Source of the DNA: a virus
Virus record (IMG/VR): IMGVR_UViG_3300011113_000596
Coordinates: 1-42,740 of that record
Direction: 5' to 3' (one strand)
Length of the DNA: 42,740 nt
The notes under the pieces were generated by a model. It made no database searches. It saw nothing but the letters and a program-made list of their open reading frames with translations, and was not told the DNA's origin. Both the position numbers and the translations under genes were made by a program. Positions 7,160 through 26,161 of this stretch are shown here, one piece after another (positions within the stretch are counted from its first letter, which is position 1; each line of letters opens with the position of its first letter).

Positions 7160-8407
7160 ATGAACAGTTCCGACAAGCGCAAGCAAAACTTCATCGAATC
7201 CCTCGCACAATGCTTTGGCGTTCGGGCCATCCCGGTGTACACTCGTGAAGAGTGTGTGCAGGCCCTAGACTTCTCCAAGCAGACCTGCCGTGAGACCTAC
7301 GGCGTCCTGCCCGCTTGGCTGGTGCAGGATCCCAGCCGACGTGGTGGCCGTGGTATGTACAACATCCCCGAAGTTTCGGGATGCACCCCGGAAAATAATC
7401 AGGAAACTTCAATCCAAACTCTTGACATTCCCGAAACTTCTGCTACAATGAGCAACATGAACAGCACCAACAACTTCAACCTCGTCCTCCCCATGTCCGA
7501 TGTCTCGCTCGTCCCCGCCAAGAACGATACCTTCGTTCCGTGGGGCCACTACGAGGACATCAACACCATCCTCGCCTCCAAGCAGTTCGCCCCCGTCTAC
7601 ATCACGGGTCTGTCGGGCAACGGCAAGACCACGATGATTGAGCAGATTTGCGCCAACACCGGACGCGATTGCGTTCGCGTCAACATCACGGCGGAGACTG
7701 ACGAGGACGATCTGCTGGGCGGCTTCCGCCTCGTCAACGGCGAGACTCGCTTCGTCTACGGCGGTGTCGTGCAGGCCATGCAGAAGGGCGCGATCCTGCT
7801 GCTGGACGAGATCGACCTCGGCTCGGAGCGCATGATGTGCCTCCAGCCCGTGCTGGAGGGCAAGGGCGTGTACCTCAAGAAGATCGGCCAGTATGTGCGT
7901 CCTGCGCCCGGATTCAATGTGGTCGCCACGGCCAACACGAAGGGCAAGGGCGAGTCCGACCGCTTCGTCGGTACGCGGGTGATGAACGAGGCGTTCCTCG
8001 ACCGCTTCTCGTACTGGTTTGAGCAGGACTACGCGGATCGCACCGTGGAGGCCCGCATCATCATCCGCAAGATGAAGGCTTACGGCCGCGAGGACAAGGA
8101 GTTCGCGCAGTACCTCACCAAGTGGGCGGAAACGATCCGCCTCGGCTTCAAGGAGGGCGGGCTGGATGACATCATCACGACCCGCCGCTTGGAGGAGGTC
8201 TGCAAGGCGTTCGCCATCTTCGCGGACAAGGAGAAGGCGATCAAGTTGACGCTCACCCGCTTCGACCCCGCCACGCAGAAGGCGTTCTACGACCTCTACA
8301 CCAAAATCGACCCCACCATCCTGCCGATGCCGGAGGGTGCGGAGAAGAAGAAGGAGCAGCGCGGTGCTGCTTCGGACAATGACACGAACTACGCTCTGAA
8401 TGCGTAA
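7160..8407 (+). CDS. MoxR/CobS-like AAA+ ATPase with extra N-terminal domain
   Basis: A 415-residue protein. Residues about 155-162 are the Walker A loop (GLSGNGKT), about 216-222 the Walker B strand (ILLLDEIDL), and ATANTKGKGESDRF is the sensor segment, as in MoxR/CobS chaperone-type AAA+ proteins. These normally work with a VWA-domain partner, and one follows at 8925. The first 75 residues form a separate small domain with LPAWLVQDPSRRGGRGMYNI, related to the small protein at 8429. A second leaderless promoter (7422-7449) precedes an internal ATG at 7457, predicting a shorter 316-residue form with only the ATPase. The target is unknown. Confidence 0.9.
   Translation: MNSSDKRKQNFIESLAQCFGVRAIPVYTREECVQALDFSKQTCRETYGVLPAWLVQDPSRRGGRGMYNIPEVSGCTPENNQETSIQTLDIPETSATMSNMNSTNNFNLVLPMSDVSLVPAKNDTFVPWGHYEDINTILASKQFAPVYITGLSGNGKTTMIEQICANTGRDCVRVNITAETDEDDLLGGFRLVNGETRFVYGGVVQAMQKGAILLLDEIDLGSERMMCLQPVLEGKGVYLKKIGQYVRPAPGFNVVATANTKGKGESDRFVGTRVMNEAFLDRFSYWFEQDYADRTVEARIIIRKMKAYGREDKEFAQYLTKWAETIRLGFKEGGLDDIITTRRLEEVCKAFAIFADKEKAIKLTLTRFDPATQKAFYDLYTKIDPTILPMPEGAEKKKEQRGAASDNDTNYALNA
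7422..7449 (+). promoter_or_regulatory. Internal promoter for a short ATPase form
   Basis: TTGACA (7422-7427), 16-base spacer, TACAAT (7444-7449); 7 bases to the in-frame ATG at 7457 (MNSTNNFNLVLPM). It lies inside the coding sequence of 7160-8407. Confidence 0.75.
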
Positions 8408-8428
8408 CTTTACAAGGAGACTTTCACA

Positions 8429-8662
8429 ATGCCGTACCTCAACAAGCGCAATCGTTTCGTCGCAGCCGCCAAGCAGTTCGCGGACAACGCCAGCAATGGC
8501 AACCCGGCGGATTACAGCCAGTTCACCAAGACCGAACTGCTGACCATCGCCCAGTCCATCAACATGAAGGGCATCCCGACTTGGGTGCTGAAGGACCACA
8601 AGAGCGCGGTCAGCAAGGGGGTCTACGATCTGACCTCCCTGATCGCCCCGGTGACCGTCTGA
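8429..8662 (+). CDS. Small protein related to the N-terminal domain of the ATPase
   Basis: A 77-residue protein beginning MPYLNKRNRFVAAAKQ. Its second half (GIPTWVLKDHKSAVSKGVYD) aligns with the ATPase N-terminal segment LPAWLVQDPSRRGGRGMYNI: hydrophobic-W-hydrophobic, D, basic run, G-hydrophobic-Y. A Shine-Dalgarno AAGGAG precedes the ATG, so it is translated from the ATPase transcript. Likely a stand-alone adaptor or DNA-binding version of that domain; function unknown. Confidence 0.78.
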   Translation: MPYLNKRNRFVAAAKQFADNASNGNPADYSQFTKTELLTIAQSINMKGIPTWVLKDHKSAVSKGVYDLTSLIAPVTV

Positions 8663-8673
8663 TGCTGTTCATA

Positions 8674-8705
8674 CCCCTCCCAGATCCACAAGGGTCTGGG
8701 AGGGG
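8674..8705 (+). terminator. Strong hairpin after the ATPase operon
   Basis: CCCCTCCCAGA (8674-8684) pairs exactly with TCTGGGAGGGG (8695-8705). No T tract follows, so termination activity is uncertain. It precedes composite hairpin copy 5. Confidence 0.6.
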
Positions 8706-8747
8706 CGGACGGGGCGGGAATGCCGGCCCAGGTGTCCAGGTGGTGCA

Positions 8748-8818
8748 GCTACTATCAAAGAATCCGCAGCGGATTCTTTGAGAATTTGAAAGTATTTGCT
8801 GGACGGCCTGATAGTAGC
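8748..8818 (+). repeat. Composite hairpin element, copy 5
   Basis: GCTACTATCA (8748-8757) pairs with TGATAGTAGC (8809-8818). The inner stem TCAAAGAATCCGC/GCGGATTCTTTGA is 13 bp with a single-base loop. The following tail (GAATTTG) is the weakest T tract in the family. Confidence 0.85.
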
Positions 8819-8890
8819 CTGGACGGTATGTTATGGACGCCATTCATTACCGGGTTGAAAAATAAATGAGGAAAAATCGTTCCTCCCCTC

Positions 8891-8918
8891 TTGCAATCCT
8901 CCTAGCATCGGTTACAAT
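8891..8918 (+). promoter_or_regulatory. Early promoter, leaderless, for gene at 8925
   Basis: TTGCAA (8891-8896), 16-base spacer, TACAAT (8913-8918); 6 bases to ATG 8925. Confidence 0.8.
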
Positions 8919-8924
8919 GTACGC

Positions 8925-11084
8925 ATGAACACCTCTCTCTCCATCTTCGCCCGCGCTCTCGCCTCCGAGAACATTTCCTTCTCCTTCGACGGCAAGGCCG
9001 ACACCGCCTCGTTCGACATCAAGGGTCGCCACCTGACGATGCCCGTTTGGAAGGTGTCGGAGACTGTGCAGACCATGCTCGTGGCTCACGAGATCAGCCA
9101 CGCCCTGTGGACCCCCTACGAGCAGGCCAACACGCTGTTCGATCAGGCCGAGGCCGATGGCTACAAGATTCCGCTGCTCCAGCGCATCTGCAATGTGATT
9201 GAGGATGTCCGCATTGAGAAGTTGATGAAGGACAAGTTCCCCGGAACCCGCCGCGACTTCTTCTTGGGCTACAAGGAGTTGTACGACGCGGACCTGTTCC
9301 GGCTCAAGTCCGTGGACTGGACGGGGCAGAACATTGTCTCCCGCATCAACGCTCACTTCAAGTGGGGCCAGCCCGGATTCATCACCGTCCCGTTCGACGC
9401 GGACGAGGCTGGTCTGCTGGACGAGGTGGATGCTTGCGCCTCCTACGAGGATGTGTTCAACCTCGCCAAGCGTCTGTACGACCTGCCCATGATGAAGGAT
9501 GTGGTCAAGAAGGCAGAGGAGGCCGAGGCCGATGGTTTGAAGCCCGAGCGCGGTGATTCGCAGAACCCCGGTAATGATCTGATGGATACGGACATTCCCG
9601 GTGCTGGCAAGAAGTCAGGCAACAAGTGCCACTCGCCCACCATCGTGATCCCCGTCGTGGACGGTTTGCAGGACGCGATCATGTCCACCACGGACATCTT
9701 GGAATCTTTTGAGTTGCAGGGCAAGAACTACCCCAGCGTCAACATGGACGATTACCGCCAGTTCGTCCGCGAGTCCGATTCGTTCGTTCGCCAGTTGGTC
9801 GCCCAGTTTGAGCGTCGCAAGGCGGCGGACGCGATCCGCAAGGAGCGTCCCAAGCAGACGGGCCAGTTGAACCTCGACCGTCTGCACCAGTACCGCACCC
9901 ACGACGATATTTTCCTCTCCAAGATCGTGAAGCAGGACGGGAAGAACCACGGGATCGTGTTCCTGATTGACTTCAGCGGGTCGATGGGCATGACCATCGG
10001 CAACTGCTACCTTCAGGTTCTCCAGTTGGTTTGGTTCTGCGAGAAGGCCAAGATTCCGTTTGAGGTGTTCGGCTTCACGGATGTCAACATGGCGTCGATG
10101 GCAAAGTACGAGCAGCAGTACGAGGATTGGCGCAAGAAGAACCCCCACGCCTACTACTCCGACTTCATGAAGCAGTTCAACATCAAGATCGTTGGACCGG
10201 ACATGAACGCGCTGGATCACGGCCATGCCCGCCTCATCAGCCTCGCCTCGTCGCGGGACGATGCGGACAAGCGCGAGAAGTTGCTGGCGCATATGTACGA
10301 GGCGACGGTGCTTCAGAAGCGTCCCCTGCCGTTCGCCATGAACGGTACGCCGACCGTGGAGTCCGTGGCGTTTGCCAGCCAGTTCATCAAGGAGTGGATC
10401 ACGGCGAACAACATTCAGATTCCGACGCTGATGATCGTCACGGACGGTGCGCCCAACGGTGTCTGCCGTCGTGAGACTCCGATCCTCACCAACCGCAAGA
10501 AGGACGAGAACGACCGCGAGGAGCAGAACATCTACTTCATCGGTGAGGACGGGACGCTGACCGTCGTGGACAACATCACCGAGACTACGACGCGGATGCA
10601 CCGCAAGGACATGACGGGCTGCGTCGGGAACGAGGTCGTCGGCATGATGCTGAACGCCATGCGGACCAAGTTCAACGCCCGCCTCGTCGGGATGTTCGTC
10701 GGCGGCAACACGCTGGCGGAAGGAACCTTCGCCCACTTCTGCATGAGCGAGGACGAGCGCCGCAAGTCCCACCGCACCGCCATTGCGGACAGCCCGCGCT
10801 TCAAGGCCGCGAAGGAGTCCTACAAGGACGGCTGCATCATCCTGCACCCCGATGCGTTCCACGGCTACGATGCCTACTTCCTCGTCAAGACCCCGAAGAT
10901 CGTGAGCGACGAGGAGGCCATTGCCGATGCTGGTGCGACCTTCACGAAGGTCAAGAACCAGTTCGTCAAGACGATGGGCCAGCGCAGCGGGAGCCGCGTG
11001 TTCCTCACCCGCTATGTGGACATCGTGGCGGGCCAGCCGCTGCGGAAGGGGGCGGATGCCCTCTACGCGAACCCGGTGATCTGA
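8925..11084 (+). CDS. Large protein with HExxH motif and VWA (MIDAS) domain, CobT-like
   Basis: A 719-residue cytoplasmic-looking protein. Residues about 53-60 read VAHEISHALW, an HExxH zinc-binding motif. Residues about 345-353 read FLIDFSGSMG, the DxSxS metal-ion-dependent adhesion site of a von Willebrand A domain, and a second VWA strand with MIVTDGAPNG follows near 503-512. VWA proteins of this kind pair with MoxR/CobS AAA+ ATPases, and that ATPase lies just upstream (7160), so the two probably form one remodelling or insertion machine. Whether the HExxH site is active cannot be told. The substrate is unknown. Confidence 0.88.
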   Translation: MNTSLSIFARALASENISFSFDGKADTASFDIKGRHLTMPVWKVSETVQTMLVAHEISHALWTPYEQANTLFDQAEADGYKIPLLQRICNVIEDVRIEKLMKDKFPGTRRDFFLGYKELYDADLFRLKSVDWTGQNIVSRINAHFKWGQPGFITVPFDADEAGLLDEVDACASYEDVFNLAKRLYDLPMMKDVVKKAEEAEADGLKPERGDSQNPGNDLMDTDIPGAGKKSGNKCHSPTIVIPVVDGLQDAIMSTTDILESFELQGKNYPSVNMDDYRQFVRESDSFVRQLVAQFERRKAADAIRKERPKQTGQLNLDRLHQYRTHDDIFLSKIVKQDGKNHGIVFLIDFSGSMGMTIGNCYLQVLQLVWFCEKAKIPFEVFGFTDVNMASMAKYEQQYEDWRKKNPHAYYSDFMKQFNIKIVGPDMNALDHGHARLISLASSRDDADKREKLLAHMYEATVLQKRPLPFAMNGTPTVESVAFASQFIKEWITANNIQIPTLMIVTDGAPNGVCRRETPILTNRKKDENDREEQNIYFIGEDGTLTVVDNITETTTRMHRKDMTGCVGNEVVGMMLNAMRTKFNARLVGMFVGGNTLAEGTFAHFCMSEDERRKSHRTAIADSPRFKAAKESYKDGCIILHPDAFHGYDAYFLVKTPKIVSDEEAIADAGATFTKVKNQFVKTMGQRSGSRVFLTRYVDIVAGQPLRKGADALYANPVI

Positions 11085-18503: not shown

Positions 18504-19067
18504 ATGACCGAGACTCGCAACCTTATTGATCATTATCACTACTGGAGCCACGATGCAATTCTTGCAGATCTTGACACACGCCGTCATAATTTTTCTGTGG
18601 TATGCTGCAACATTGGTAATGATTTCAATATTGCTACAGTTATTAGAAATGCTAACGCGTTTCTCGGAAAAGAAGTTGTCATCTACGGCAATAAGAAATA
18701 TGATCGTCGTGGGACTGTTGGAACCCATCATTATACTAACTTCAAACATGTACGTACTATTGATTCGTTGGCCGATTATGTTGCATCATTGGTTGAGCAA
18801 GTTGGGTCTCGTGAGATGGTAAAGATCATCGGGATCGACAATGTTCCTGAAGCCAAAGATGTAAATGCTTATGAGTTTGATAACACCAATCACTATGTCT
18901 TTGTCTTCGGTCAGGAACAGATAGGCGTTCCCGGTGATGTCCTAAATATGTGTGATGACATTCTCTATATTCCGCAGTATGGATCTGTGAGAAGCATCAA
19001 TGTTGGTTGTGCCAGTTCAATTATTATGAATAATTACTGCGCTAAAATTCACTCTTCTGTAGTGTAA
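18504..19067 (+). CDS. SpoU/TrmH-family (SPOUT) RNA 2'-O-methyltransferase
   Basis: A 187-residue protein with the three SPOUT motifs in order: N-x10-N...R (NIGNDFNIATVIRNANAF, about residues 36-53), FGQEQIGVP (about 135-143) and IPQYGSVRSINVGCASSII (about 156-174). Family members methylate the 2'-OH of ribose in tRNA or rRNA with S-adenosylmethionine, using a trefoil knot. Surrounded by tRNA genes and carrying its own leaderless promoter, it may modify phage or host tRNA. Its last 15 bases overlap the start of tRNA-Gln. Confidence 0.9.
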   Translation: MTETRNLIDHYHYWSHDAILADLDTRRHNFSVVCCNIGNDFNIATVIRNANAFLGKEVVIYGNKKYDRRGTVGTHHYTNFKHVRTIDSLADYVASLVEQVGSREMVKIIGIDNVPEAKDVNAYEFDNTNHYVFVFGQEQIGVPGDVLNMCDDILYIPQYGSVRSINVGCASSIIMNNYCAKIHSSVV

Positions 19068-24877: not shown

Positions 24878-24905
24878 TTGACACAGGGTTTCTAAGTGCT
24901 ATAAT
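24878..24905 (+). promoter_or_regulatory. Early promoter for the 24913 gene, tRNA and tmRNA operon
   Basis: TTGACA (24878-24883), 16-base spacer, TATAAT (24900-24905); 7 bases to ATG 24913. No other promoter is obvious before the tRNA and tmRNA genes. Confidence 0.88.
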
Positions 24906-24912
24906 GTGCCAT

Positions 24913-25047
24913 ATGGATTATGGATCTCATGGTGCTGGTAAAGGTAGTTCACCTCGTCCGGTGAATATGGAAACCTATGGTAAAAATTTTGAGGCAATTT
25001 TTGGTAAAAAGAAGCCTAAGAAAAACTCAAAAAAGAAGAGTAAATAA
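24913..25047 (+). CDS. 44-residue basic protein
   Basis: Reads MDYGSHGAGKGSSPRPVNME, then a segment ending in a Lys-rich tail (KKPKKNSKKKSK). A strong leaderless promoter lies 7 bases upstream and tRNA-Tyr begins 9 bases after the stop. The tail suggests RNA or DNA binding; the position at the head of a tRNA/tmRNA transcript hints at an RNA-related role, but this is a guess. Confidence 0.7.
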   Translation: MDYGSHGAGKGSSPRPVNMETYGKNFEAIFGKKKPKKNSKKKSK

Positions 25048-25056
25048 TCCAATTTA

Positions 25057-25139
25057 GCGAGTGTACTCAAGCGGTCAACGAGGGCAGACTGTAAATCTGC
25101 TGACATCTGTCTACGAAGGTTCGAATCCCTCCGCTCGCA
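25057..25139 (+). tRNA. tRNA-Tyr (anticodon GTA)
   Basis: Acceptor GCGAGTG/CGCTCGC, anticodon in AGACTGTAAATCT (GTA), a long type II variable arm as normal for bacterial tRNA-Tyr, and a T-arm with loop TTCGAAT. One mismatch in the T stem. Confidence 0.9.
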
Positions 25140-25142
25140 TTT

Positions 25143-25256
25143 TGATGATCGGCTTGGTGGGAACAAGCAGTCTTGACAAGAGATGTGCTGGCGTAAAACG
25201 GTGTACTATAAATTGACCGACAAAGCCAGACAATGGGTTCAAATCCCATATCATCA
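25143..25256 (+). ncRNA. tRNA-like element with an abnormal core
   Basis: Acceptor TGATGAT/ATCATCA (7 bp), D-arm GCTTG-GTGGGAA-CAAGC and T-arm ATGGG-TTCAAAT-CCCAT are all canonical. The segment between D-arm and T-arm is 63 bases instead of about 23 and shows no 5-bp stem with a 7-base anticodon loop. It does show CTGGC/GCCAG enclosing CGGT/ACCG. Could be an intron-containing tRNA, a tRNA with an insertion or a tRNA mimic. Confidence 0.6.
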
Positions 25257-25273
25257 TCTAAATAAGTTTGTAC

Positions 25274-25347
25274 TAGGTAGTAGCGCAATTTGGTAGCGCG
25301 TCTCGTTTGGGTCGAGAAGGTTGCTAGTTCAAATCTAGTCTACCTAA
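25274..25347 (+). tRNA. tRNA-Pro (anticodon TGG)
   Basis: Acceptor TAGGTAG/CTACCTA, D-arm GCGC...GCGC, anticodon stem TCTCG/CGAGA with loop TTTGGGT (TGG), T-arm GCTAG-TTCAAAT-CTAGT (one G-T pair). Confidence 0.92.
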
Positions 25348-25553
25348 TTGGTATTGTTGATATCGGATCAAAAGTTGTCCAACACAGGGGTTCGATTCCC
25401 CTCGGGTCCATTAGCCTAACCGAAGGATTCTGCAATTCCTTAGAGATGGCGAGTCAAGTCCTCGTAGCAGCGGGGCATCGCTTGGAGTCCTAGGCTCCAA
25501 GCAATACGGGCCTGAACTGGCTTCGATTGGCGGCGAGTAGAGAAGAAGGAGAT

Positions 25554-25576
25554 ACCCGACACGGGTAACAAGTGTC
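25554..25576 (+). other. tmRNA pseudoknot PK1
   Basis: ACCC (25554-25557) pairs with GGGT (25563-25566); the loop GACAC (25558-25562) pairs with GTGTC (25572-25576). This H-type pseudoknot lies 14 bases before the resume codon, as PK1 does in known tmRNAs. Confidence 0.85.
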
Positions 25577-25590
25577 GTAAATAAACAGTT

Positions 25591-25629
25591 GCAAATATGA
25601 TTGCCGCACCTATGGCAATGGCTGCTTGA
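25591..25629 (+). other. tmRNA tag reading frame
   Basis: From the GCA at 25591 the frame reads ANMIAAPMAMAA then TGA (25627-25629). A first codon GCA-AAT (Ala-Asn) and an Ala-Ala end are typical of proteolysis tags recognised by ClpXP. The tag carries three Met and no acidic residue, unlike the alphaproteobacterial and cyanobacterial tags I know. Confidence 0.85.
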
Positions 25630-25669
25630 AGCAGTGGGGACTGACCATCCCGCATCTGAATTGGTCCTT

Positions 25670-25694
25670 CACCCCGAAAGGGGTGTTGTTATTT
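25670..25694 (+). terminator. Intrinsic terminator of the tRNA/tmRNA operon
   Basis: CACCCC (25670-25675), GAAA loop, GGGGTG (25680-25685), then TTGTTATTT. Confidence 0.88.
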
Positions 25695-25720
25695 GACAAC
25701 CGCCATATATGGTGTATAAT
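25693..25720 (+). promoter_or_regulatory. Early promoter, leaderless, for gene at 25727
   Basis: TTGACA (25693-25698), 16-base spacer, TATAAT (25715-25720); 6 bases to ATG 25727. Confidence 0.9.
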
Positions 25721-25726
25721 ATGTGC

Positions 25727-26161
25727 ATGGAACAAAGAGATCCGTTAGATGGTATTAGTCAAGAAGATATGGCCAATGCACTTGATAATGCTATGGAAGT
25801 AATAAAGAAAAACACTTATACAGCCCCCACGGTAGATCTTGATATTGATTCGTTTACGGGTGAATTTGCTAGTAAATCTTATAAAAAGTACAATTACAAA
25901 ACTATGCATAAAGATTACAATGATACAAAGTATTATGGTCTTCCTCACGATAATGGAGTTGCCGAAAAGATAAATTCTCTTTGGCAAGAGATCAAAAACT
26001 TGCAGGCGCAGGTTGCCATTGCAAGCACCATGCTAAAGCAGCAAGATGTTACTATTAAAGAGTTGAGAGAACAACTGCACAACGTTGACAGTGATAAACT
26101 TCAGGAAATGAATGATCGTATGGACGATCTTGAAGCCCGCATCGATCTAATTGACGAATAA
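25727..26161 (+). CDS. Coiled-coil protein (144 aa)
   Basis: Begins MEQRDPLDGISQEDMANALD; the in-frame ATG at 25709 is inside the promoter and is rejected. The last 60 residues form a long coiled coil (EIKNLQAQVAIASTMLKQQD through to DRMDDLEARIDLIDE). Likely an oligomer. Function unknown. First of five tightly packed small genes ending at a terminator at 27295. Confidence 0.75.
   Translation: MEQRDPLDGISQEDMANALDNAMEVIKKNTYTAPTVDLDIDSFTGEFASKSYKKYNYKTMHKDYNDTKYYGLPHDNGVAEKINSLWQEIKNLQAQVAIASTMLKQQDVTIKELREQLHNVDSDKLQEMNDRMDDLEARIDLIDE

Follow-up and report, generated by a model that had tools for sequence, protein, structure and literature searches.

The window analysed here, by which we mean the whole 42,740-nt (42.7-kb) stretch of an IMG/VR virus record classed as linear and representing a fragment, contains a compact run of RNA genes in the order promoter, tRNA-Tyr, tRNA-like element B, tRNA-Pro, tmRNA and terminator (24878-25694; Table 1). 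ARAGORN made ten calls on the window, including a permuted tmRNA (tmRNA*) at 25320-25720 with the tag ANMIAAPMAMAA. Since tRNA-Tyr, element B, tRNA-Pro and the tmRNA all lie between the promoter-like site and the terminator (25670-25685, then the T-rich tail), they apparently form one stable-RNA operon, of which the tmRNA looks like the last gene. A second perfect TTGACA-16-TATAAT site (25693-25720) occurs right after the tmRNA terminator, upstream of a 150-aa ORF (25709-26161).

Table 1. Features of the stable-RNA operon; positions refer to the window.
Feature	Position	Strand	Basis
Sigma-70-type promoter-like site, TTGACA-16-TATAAT, TG before the -10	24878-24905	+	Consensus match only, 12/12
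tRNA-Tyr (GTA)	25057-25139	+	ARAGORN, Rfam
Element B, tRNA-like RNA	25143-25256	+	Comparison of relatives; without Rfam family
tRNA-Pro (TGG), directly upstream of the tmRNA	25274-25347	+	ARAGORN, Rfam
tmRNA first-transcribed piece: P2 3′ strand, T-arm, acceptor 3′ strand, discriminator A	25350-25410	+	Sequence, Rfam
Element A, spacer between the tmRNA pieces, conserved structured RNA	25411-25507	+	Comparison of relatives; without Rfam family
Start of mRNA-like piece: acceptor 5′ strand, D-loop region, P2 5′ strand, PK1	25508-25577	+	Sequence, Rfam, relatives
Tag frame ANMIAAPMAMAA-stop, as called	25591-25629	+	ARAGORN and relatives
PK2-like pseudoknot 3′ of the tag (GGGA/TCCC, GACCA/TGGTC)	25630-25668	+	By eye; present in relatives
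Intrinsic terminator CACCCCGAAAGGGGTG and T-rich tail, operon end	25670-25694	+	Sequence pattern

The Rfam family of permuted tmRNAs (RF04321, tmRNA_permuted) matches the window over 25350-25629 with 69.1 bits, exceeding the gathering cut-off of 47 that defines membership; with the whole window searched against all of Rfam the E-value is 2.2e-11, well past chance. The covariance model and the ARAGORN call together bear out the proposal, made in an earlier note from the sequence alone, that a permuted two-piece tmRNA is encoded here, and the acceptor strands, T-arm, D-region, PK1 and tag frame which that note named were each located as it described. Several relatives score somewhat higher on RF04321 (up to 81 bits, versus 69 for the window). 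Among the lineage-specific models, alpha_tmRNA (RF01849) gave nothing on the window at E 0.001, and both beta_tmRNA (RF01850; 42.8 bits, cut-off 84) and cyano_tmRNA (RF01851; 37.9 bits, cut-off 70) stayed below threshold; the beta model is thus the best of a set in which none passes its cut-off, and is only a weak hint as to the host. The identity of the gene is firm; expression, processing, charging and tagging would be expected from what is known of the family.

In the window the 3′ half of the tRNA-like domain precedes the 5′ half, and the acceptor strands CGGGTCC (25403-25409) and GGGCCTG (25508-25514) are complementary in this permuted order, with 7/7 pairs including G3-U70. The discriminator base A73 lies at 25410, so that both alanine identity elements (G3-U70 and A73) are present; the CCA end is not encoded. 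The T-arm, AGGGG-TTCGATT-CCCCT (25386-25402), the D-region, CTGGCTTCGATT (25517-25528), and the pseudoknot PK1 (25554-25577; ACCC/GGGT and GACAC/GTGTC) complete the recognisable architecture upstream of the tag.

Relatives, all of them metagenomic fragments, were gathered by pattern searches. A tag-independent IMG/VR pattern running from the T-arm to the D-region recovered 30 contigs, many with ARAGORN permuted tmRNAs bearing tags such as ANELAMAA, ANIKAAPMRMAA and AAPMAMAA; two tag patterns gave 71 and 10 matches, many of which are permuted tmRNAs. Across the more than 50 virus contigs with relatives, compensatory changes occur in the acceptor stem, in PK1 and in other helices. Seven different acceptor stems were found, every one of them 7/7 paired, and U70 is present in all 76 parsed loci (G3 was imposed by the parsing script, which required GGG on the 5′ strand, U70 was not). 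The commonest stem among the relatives is GGGGCTG/CGGCTCC; relative to it, that of the window itself (GGGCCTG/CGGGTCC) has undergone a compensatory change at the fourth pair. The sequence of PK1 varies among relatives with pairing retained in most classes. On this comparative evidence the window carries a real permuted tmRNA gene, the structure of which is under selection.

The tag frame of the window lies 3′ of PK1, closes with a TGA stop (25627-25629) and encodes a hydrophobic C-terminus. The earlier note had described such a frame running to a stop, and the frame is present; its 12-codon length is the ARAGORN reading, and conservation covers eight codons. Only these last eight codons, AAPMAMAA (25603-25626), form the conserved tag among 33 distinct relatives, with synonymous third-base changes within them and free variation in the four preceding codons. 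Tag conservation is partly built into the loci obtained by the two tag-pattern searches, but those found without a tag criterion, by the T-arm/D-region pattern or by the element A pattern described below, carry the same tags, and the comparison indicates that tag coding is under selection. The resume codon is less settled. The GCA at 25591 lies 13 bases after PK1, the spacing also read in HTVC008M, which favours resumption there (12 residues) over 25603 (8 residues); the four codons from 25591, however, are not conserved. In the relatives, the distance from GTTG to the aligned GCN falls into two length classes (15 or 16 bases), and in one locus (L056) a stop lies in frame three codons upstream. 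The absence of acidic residues, highlighted in the earlier note, is no trait of the clade, since ANELAMAA, ANEMAMAA and AEELAIAA occur in relatives.

Support for assignment to a T4-like phage, as the earlier note had it, comes from the relatives and from genes elsewhere in the window rather than from a capsid gene of its own. Of 20 long contigs whose permuted tmRNAs are related or similar, 6 encode Gp23, the T4-type major capsid protein (among these 6, L018 bears a different tag type, ANDEYFAPVAMAA); Gp23 was not seen in the 42.7-kb fragment. The CobS- and CobT-like genes of the window (7160-11084) are closest to those of T4-like cyano- and pelagiphages, at less than 60% identity. Much of the window is unrecognised. 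Megablast of 20000-42740 against a phage isolate collection gave no match, blastn of the tmRNA found no isolate relative save for a T-arm match in an Enterococcus phage, and two large window proteins used as queries yielded no relatives. An SmpB gene is absent from the window and from the 20 related contigs, which are fragments; a phage-encoded SmpB was rejected on these grounds, and the host protein would have to serve. A SpoU-type RNA methyltransferase domain (PF00588, E 2.5e-22) is encoded at 18504-19067, near phage tRNA genes, and the ORF at 17274-18488 matches phage DNA methyltransferase families (best phrog_116, E 1.5e-88).

Marine T4-like phages that carry a permuted tmRNA are already on record, and the earlier description of the arrangement as unusual was overstated. 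The paper on Melnitz reported two-piece tmRNAs of aquatic phages in 2022: among 18,146 phage genomes there were 53 two-piece calls, and marine or aquatic samples accounted for 50 of these (PMC9004378). In its current form the tmRNA database has 79 entries from phages and 11,946 that are permuted (PMC11915505). Melnitz (a Methylophilales phage, known here from the paper) and the pelagiphages Mosig and HTVC008M resemble the window in being T4-like aquatic phages that carry a permuted tmRNA (PMC9004378), and the latter two match the same family, RF04321, with 93.6 and 90.6 bits, respectively. They differ in that Mosig and HTVC008M are of the alpha type (RF01849 over cut-off), whereas the window passes no lineage cut-off; their tags are GEDNFALAA and ANFNEYALAA, in contrast to the AAPMAMAA type; and their spacer is apparently one simple hairpin, in place of the kissing hairpins found here. 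Bacterial permuted tmRNAs (RF01849, RF01850 and RF01851, all covered by RF04321) share with the window the gene order, the tRNA-like domain, G3-U70, PK1, a tag and an excised spacer; the window is set apart from them by its beta score (42.8 bits, below 84) and by element A.

The region between the two tmRNA pieces, taken in the earlier note for a plain spacer, is instead a conserved structured RNA of 97 bases, which we denote element A. Its hairpin H1 (AAGGA/TCCTT) presents a CTGCAA loop that kisses the TAGCAG loop of H2 (CCTCG/CGGGG), and a further hairpin (CTTGGAG/CTCCAAG) lies at the 3′ side. In an alignment of the window's 97 bases with 21 distinct spacers from relatives, the helices GCC/GGC, H1, H2 and the 3′ hairpin, together with the kissing pairing, have 95.3% of cells paired, with double changes in 9 of 24 pairs; the covariation is 0.170, compared with 0.090 on shuffling (0/500 as high) and at most 0.045 when the structure is slid. 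H1 alone occurs in at least eight different sequences. The kissing helix so far rests on one double change (CTGTAA/TTACAG in L017) and on strong conservation. The element A pattern, used alone, found 36 virus contigs, in 35 of which it lies between permuted tmRNA halves, the other being a chance match; a model of the element matched 16 of 38 phage records, with a single copy in each contig, and did not match T4, Mosig or HTVC008M. No Rfam family was matched, so a known Rfam RNA was rejected; likewise rejected was a host RNA, there being no match in 84,980 bacterial or archaeal species genomes. A conserved RNA in a tmRNA spacer was not found described in the openly accessible literature, and element A, and with it a structured spacer in a phage tmRNA as the new feature, appears to be previously undescribed.

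Three types of spacer were distinguished in the 76 parsed loci, namely element A (38), a short spacer of 5-13 bases (30) and element B (8). Element B is a tRNA-like RNA of 113-123 bases with an acceptor stem, D-arm and T-arm, a non-decoding anticodon-like hairpin (loop TGACAAG or TGAGAAG, with no U33) and a long extra arm (CTGGC-GTAAAA-CGGT..ACCG-ACAAA-GCCAG). Double changes occur in 15 of 31 pairs, with a covariation of 0.286 versus 0.120 shuffled, MAFFT misaligning the T-arm between subgroups so that the count is lower there. In the window element B stands alone between tRNA-Tyr and tRNA-Pro, where ARAGORN and Rfam both miss it and it is unannotated; in other phages it occupies the spacer of the tmRNA. 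Several identities for it were rejected: no Rfam family was matched; the one match in 84,980 bacterial or archaeal species genomes (Litoreibacter) is a chance match with no tRNA nearby, which speaks against a host RNA; as a YrlA or Y RNA, one locus reached just 21.7 bits against 69, and YrlA gave no match to the window at E 10; and a Y RNA with a Ro60 partner is not indicated, no TROVE domain being encoded in the 20 contigs. T4 rnaC and rnaD (139 and 119 nt) are, like the window elements, uncharacterised stable RNAs beside tRNA genes, but neither the element A nor the element B model matches the T4 genome, and identity of element B with either was rejected. The nearest precedent for an RNA gene in a tmRNA spacer is the nominally archaeal GCA-2688965 sp002688965.2, in which a tRNA-Ala gene occupies the intervening sequence of a permuted tmRNA and was called unique (PMC11915505); that spacer holds a normal tRNA, whereas the phages hold two unknown RNA families, A and the tRNA-like B, recurrently across many phages.

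We consider it very probable (roughly 0.85) that a T4-like aquatic phage here encodes a functional, circularly permuted tmRNA, processed by host enzymes and with a kissing-hairpin RNA as its spacer. In the proposed mechanism, one transcript from the stable-RNA operon would be cut by host tRNA-processing enzymes that excise element A, with RNase P cleaving before GGGCCTG at 25508, and with 3′ trimming after A25410 and CCA addition finishing the other end. The two pieces would be held together by the acceptor stem and the P2 pairing, and the RNA would be charged with alanine, given G3-U70. With host SmpB as partner in trans-translation, it would add to stalled nascent chains a tag that ends in AAPMAMAA and presumably serves as a degron of the ClpXP type. 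Element A is most likely an accessory RNA domain, specific to phages, that rides on tmRNA processing; it may guide folding and cutting of the precursor, or it may be a small RNA set free in the process. Not every tmRNA of the clade requires it, as the spacer of close relatives is either 5-13 bases long or filled by the tRNA-like RNA.

Two alternatives concern element A and are both improbable in our estimation. It could be an independent RNA gene or a self-cleaving ribozyme that cuts the precursor, leaving formation of the tmRNA 3′ end free of host enzymes; the compact kissing fold and the long unvaried stretches (TTAGCCTAACC, GGCGA, AAGTCC and GGGGCA) beside the 3′ end to be made fit such a role, as does a slight resemblance between GCCTAAC..GGGGC and the active site of twister. 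Against it, twister-P1 (RF03160), searched at E 10, gave nothing on the window or on five relatives and was rejected, no Rfam ribozyme was matched, the kissing topology is unlike that of twister or HDV, and relatives with a 5-13 base spacer manage without the element. Equally doubtful is a regulatory aptamer (riboswitch) that would govern tmRNA maturation, by analogy with the glutamine riboswitch predicted within the ssrA gene of Melnitz, in its 3′ domain (PMC9004378): element A matches no riboswitch family, and no glutamine-riboswitch match at gathering scores was found around the Mosig or HTVC008M tmRNA.

Somewhat less likely still is that the tmRNA acts as a decoy, being charged or binding SmpB and the ribosome and mainly competing with the host tmRNA. 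A tag-less phage tmRNA form (DS6A) does inhibit E. coli tmRNA (PMC11915505), yet a decoy would have no need of a selected tag, and the window retains the tag frame, with coding selection acting on the final eight codons in more than 30 distinct relatives. A decaying remnant of host DNA taken up by the phage is a very improbable reading of the tmRNA: phages can acquire ssrA fragments from hosts (PMC9004378) and the RF04321 score of the window is on the low side, but the acceptor change in the window itself is compensatory, the tag and stop are intact, the operon has its promoter and terminator, and the gene is conserved across a large phage clade.

Knowledge of phage two-piece tmRNAs comes mostly from annotation. 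In this clade such an RNA has a tag type of its own, is under strong selection for both structure and coding, and belongs to a defined operon. With a conserved RNA in its excised spacer, it becomes a testable question whether tmRNA maturation serves phages to produce or control a further RNA. The functions given here for elements A and B are putative, and we suggest, tentatively, that the spacer of phage permuted tmRNAs is a home for small structured RNAs, in which at least two unrelated families (A and B) alternate and are excised during tmRNA maturation, acting in trans or as self-processing or switch domains that time the activity of the rescue RNA. Were element A to cut, to switch or to act in trans, it would represent a new class of RNA, lodged within a gene for ribosome rescue.

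Two further arrangements were observed among the relatives. At L127:736-852, a T-arm and an acceptor 3′ end of the tmRNA type precede element B, and an apparent tRNA comes after it in place of the mRNA-like half; this locus is possibly a broken or further split tmRNA. At L034:1126-1439 and similar loci the halves lie only 5-6 bases apart (TTCGAC), such that the acceptor stem of the precursor is nearly a closed hairpin.
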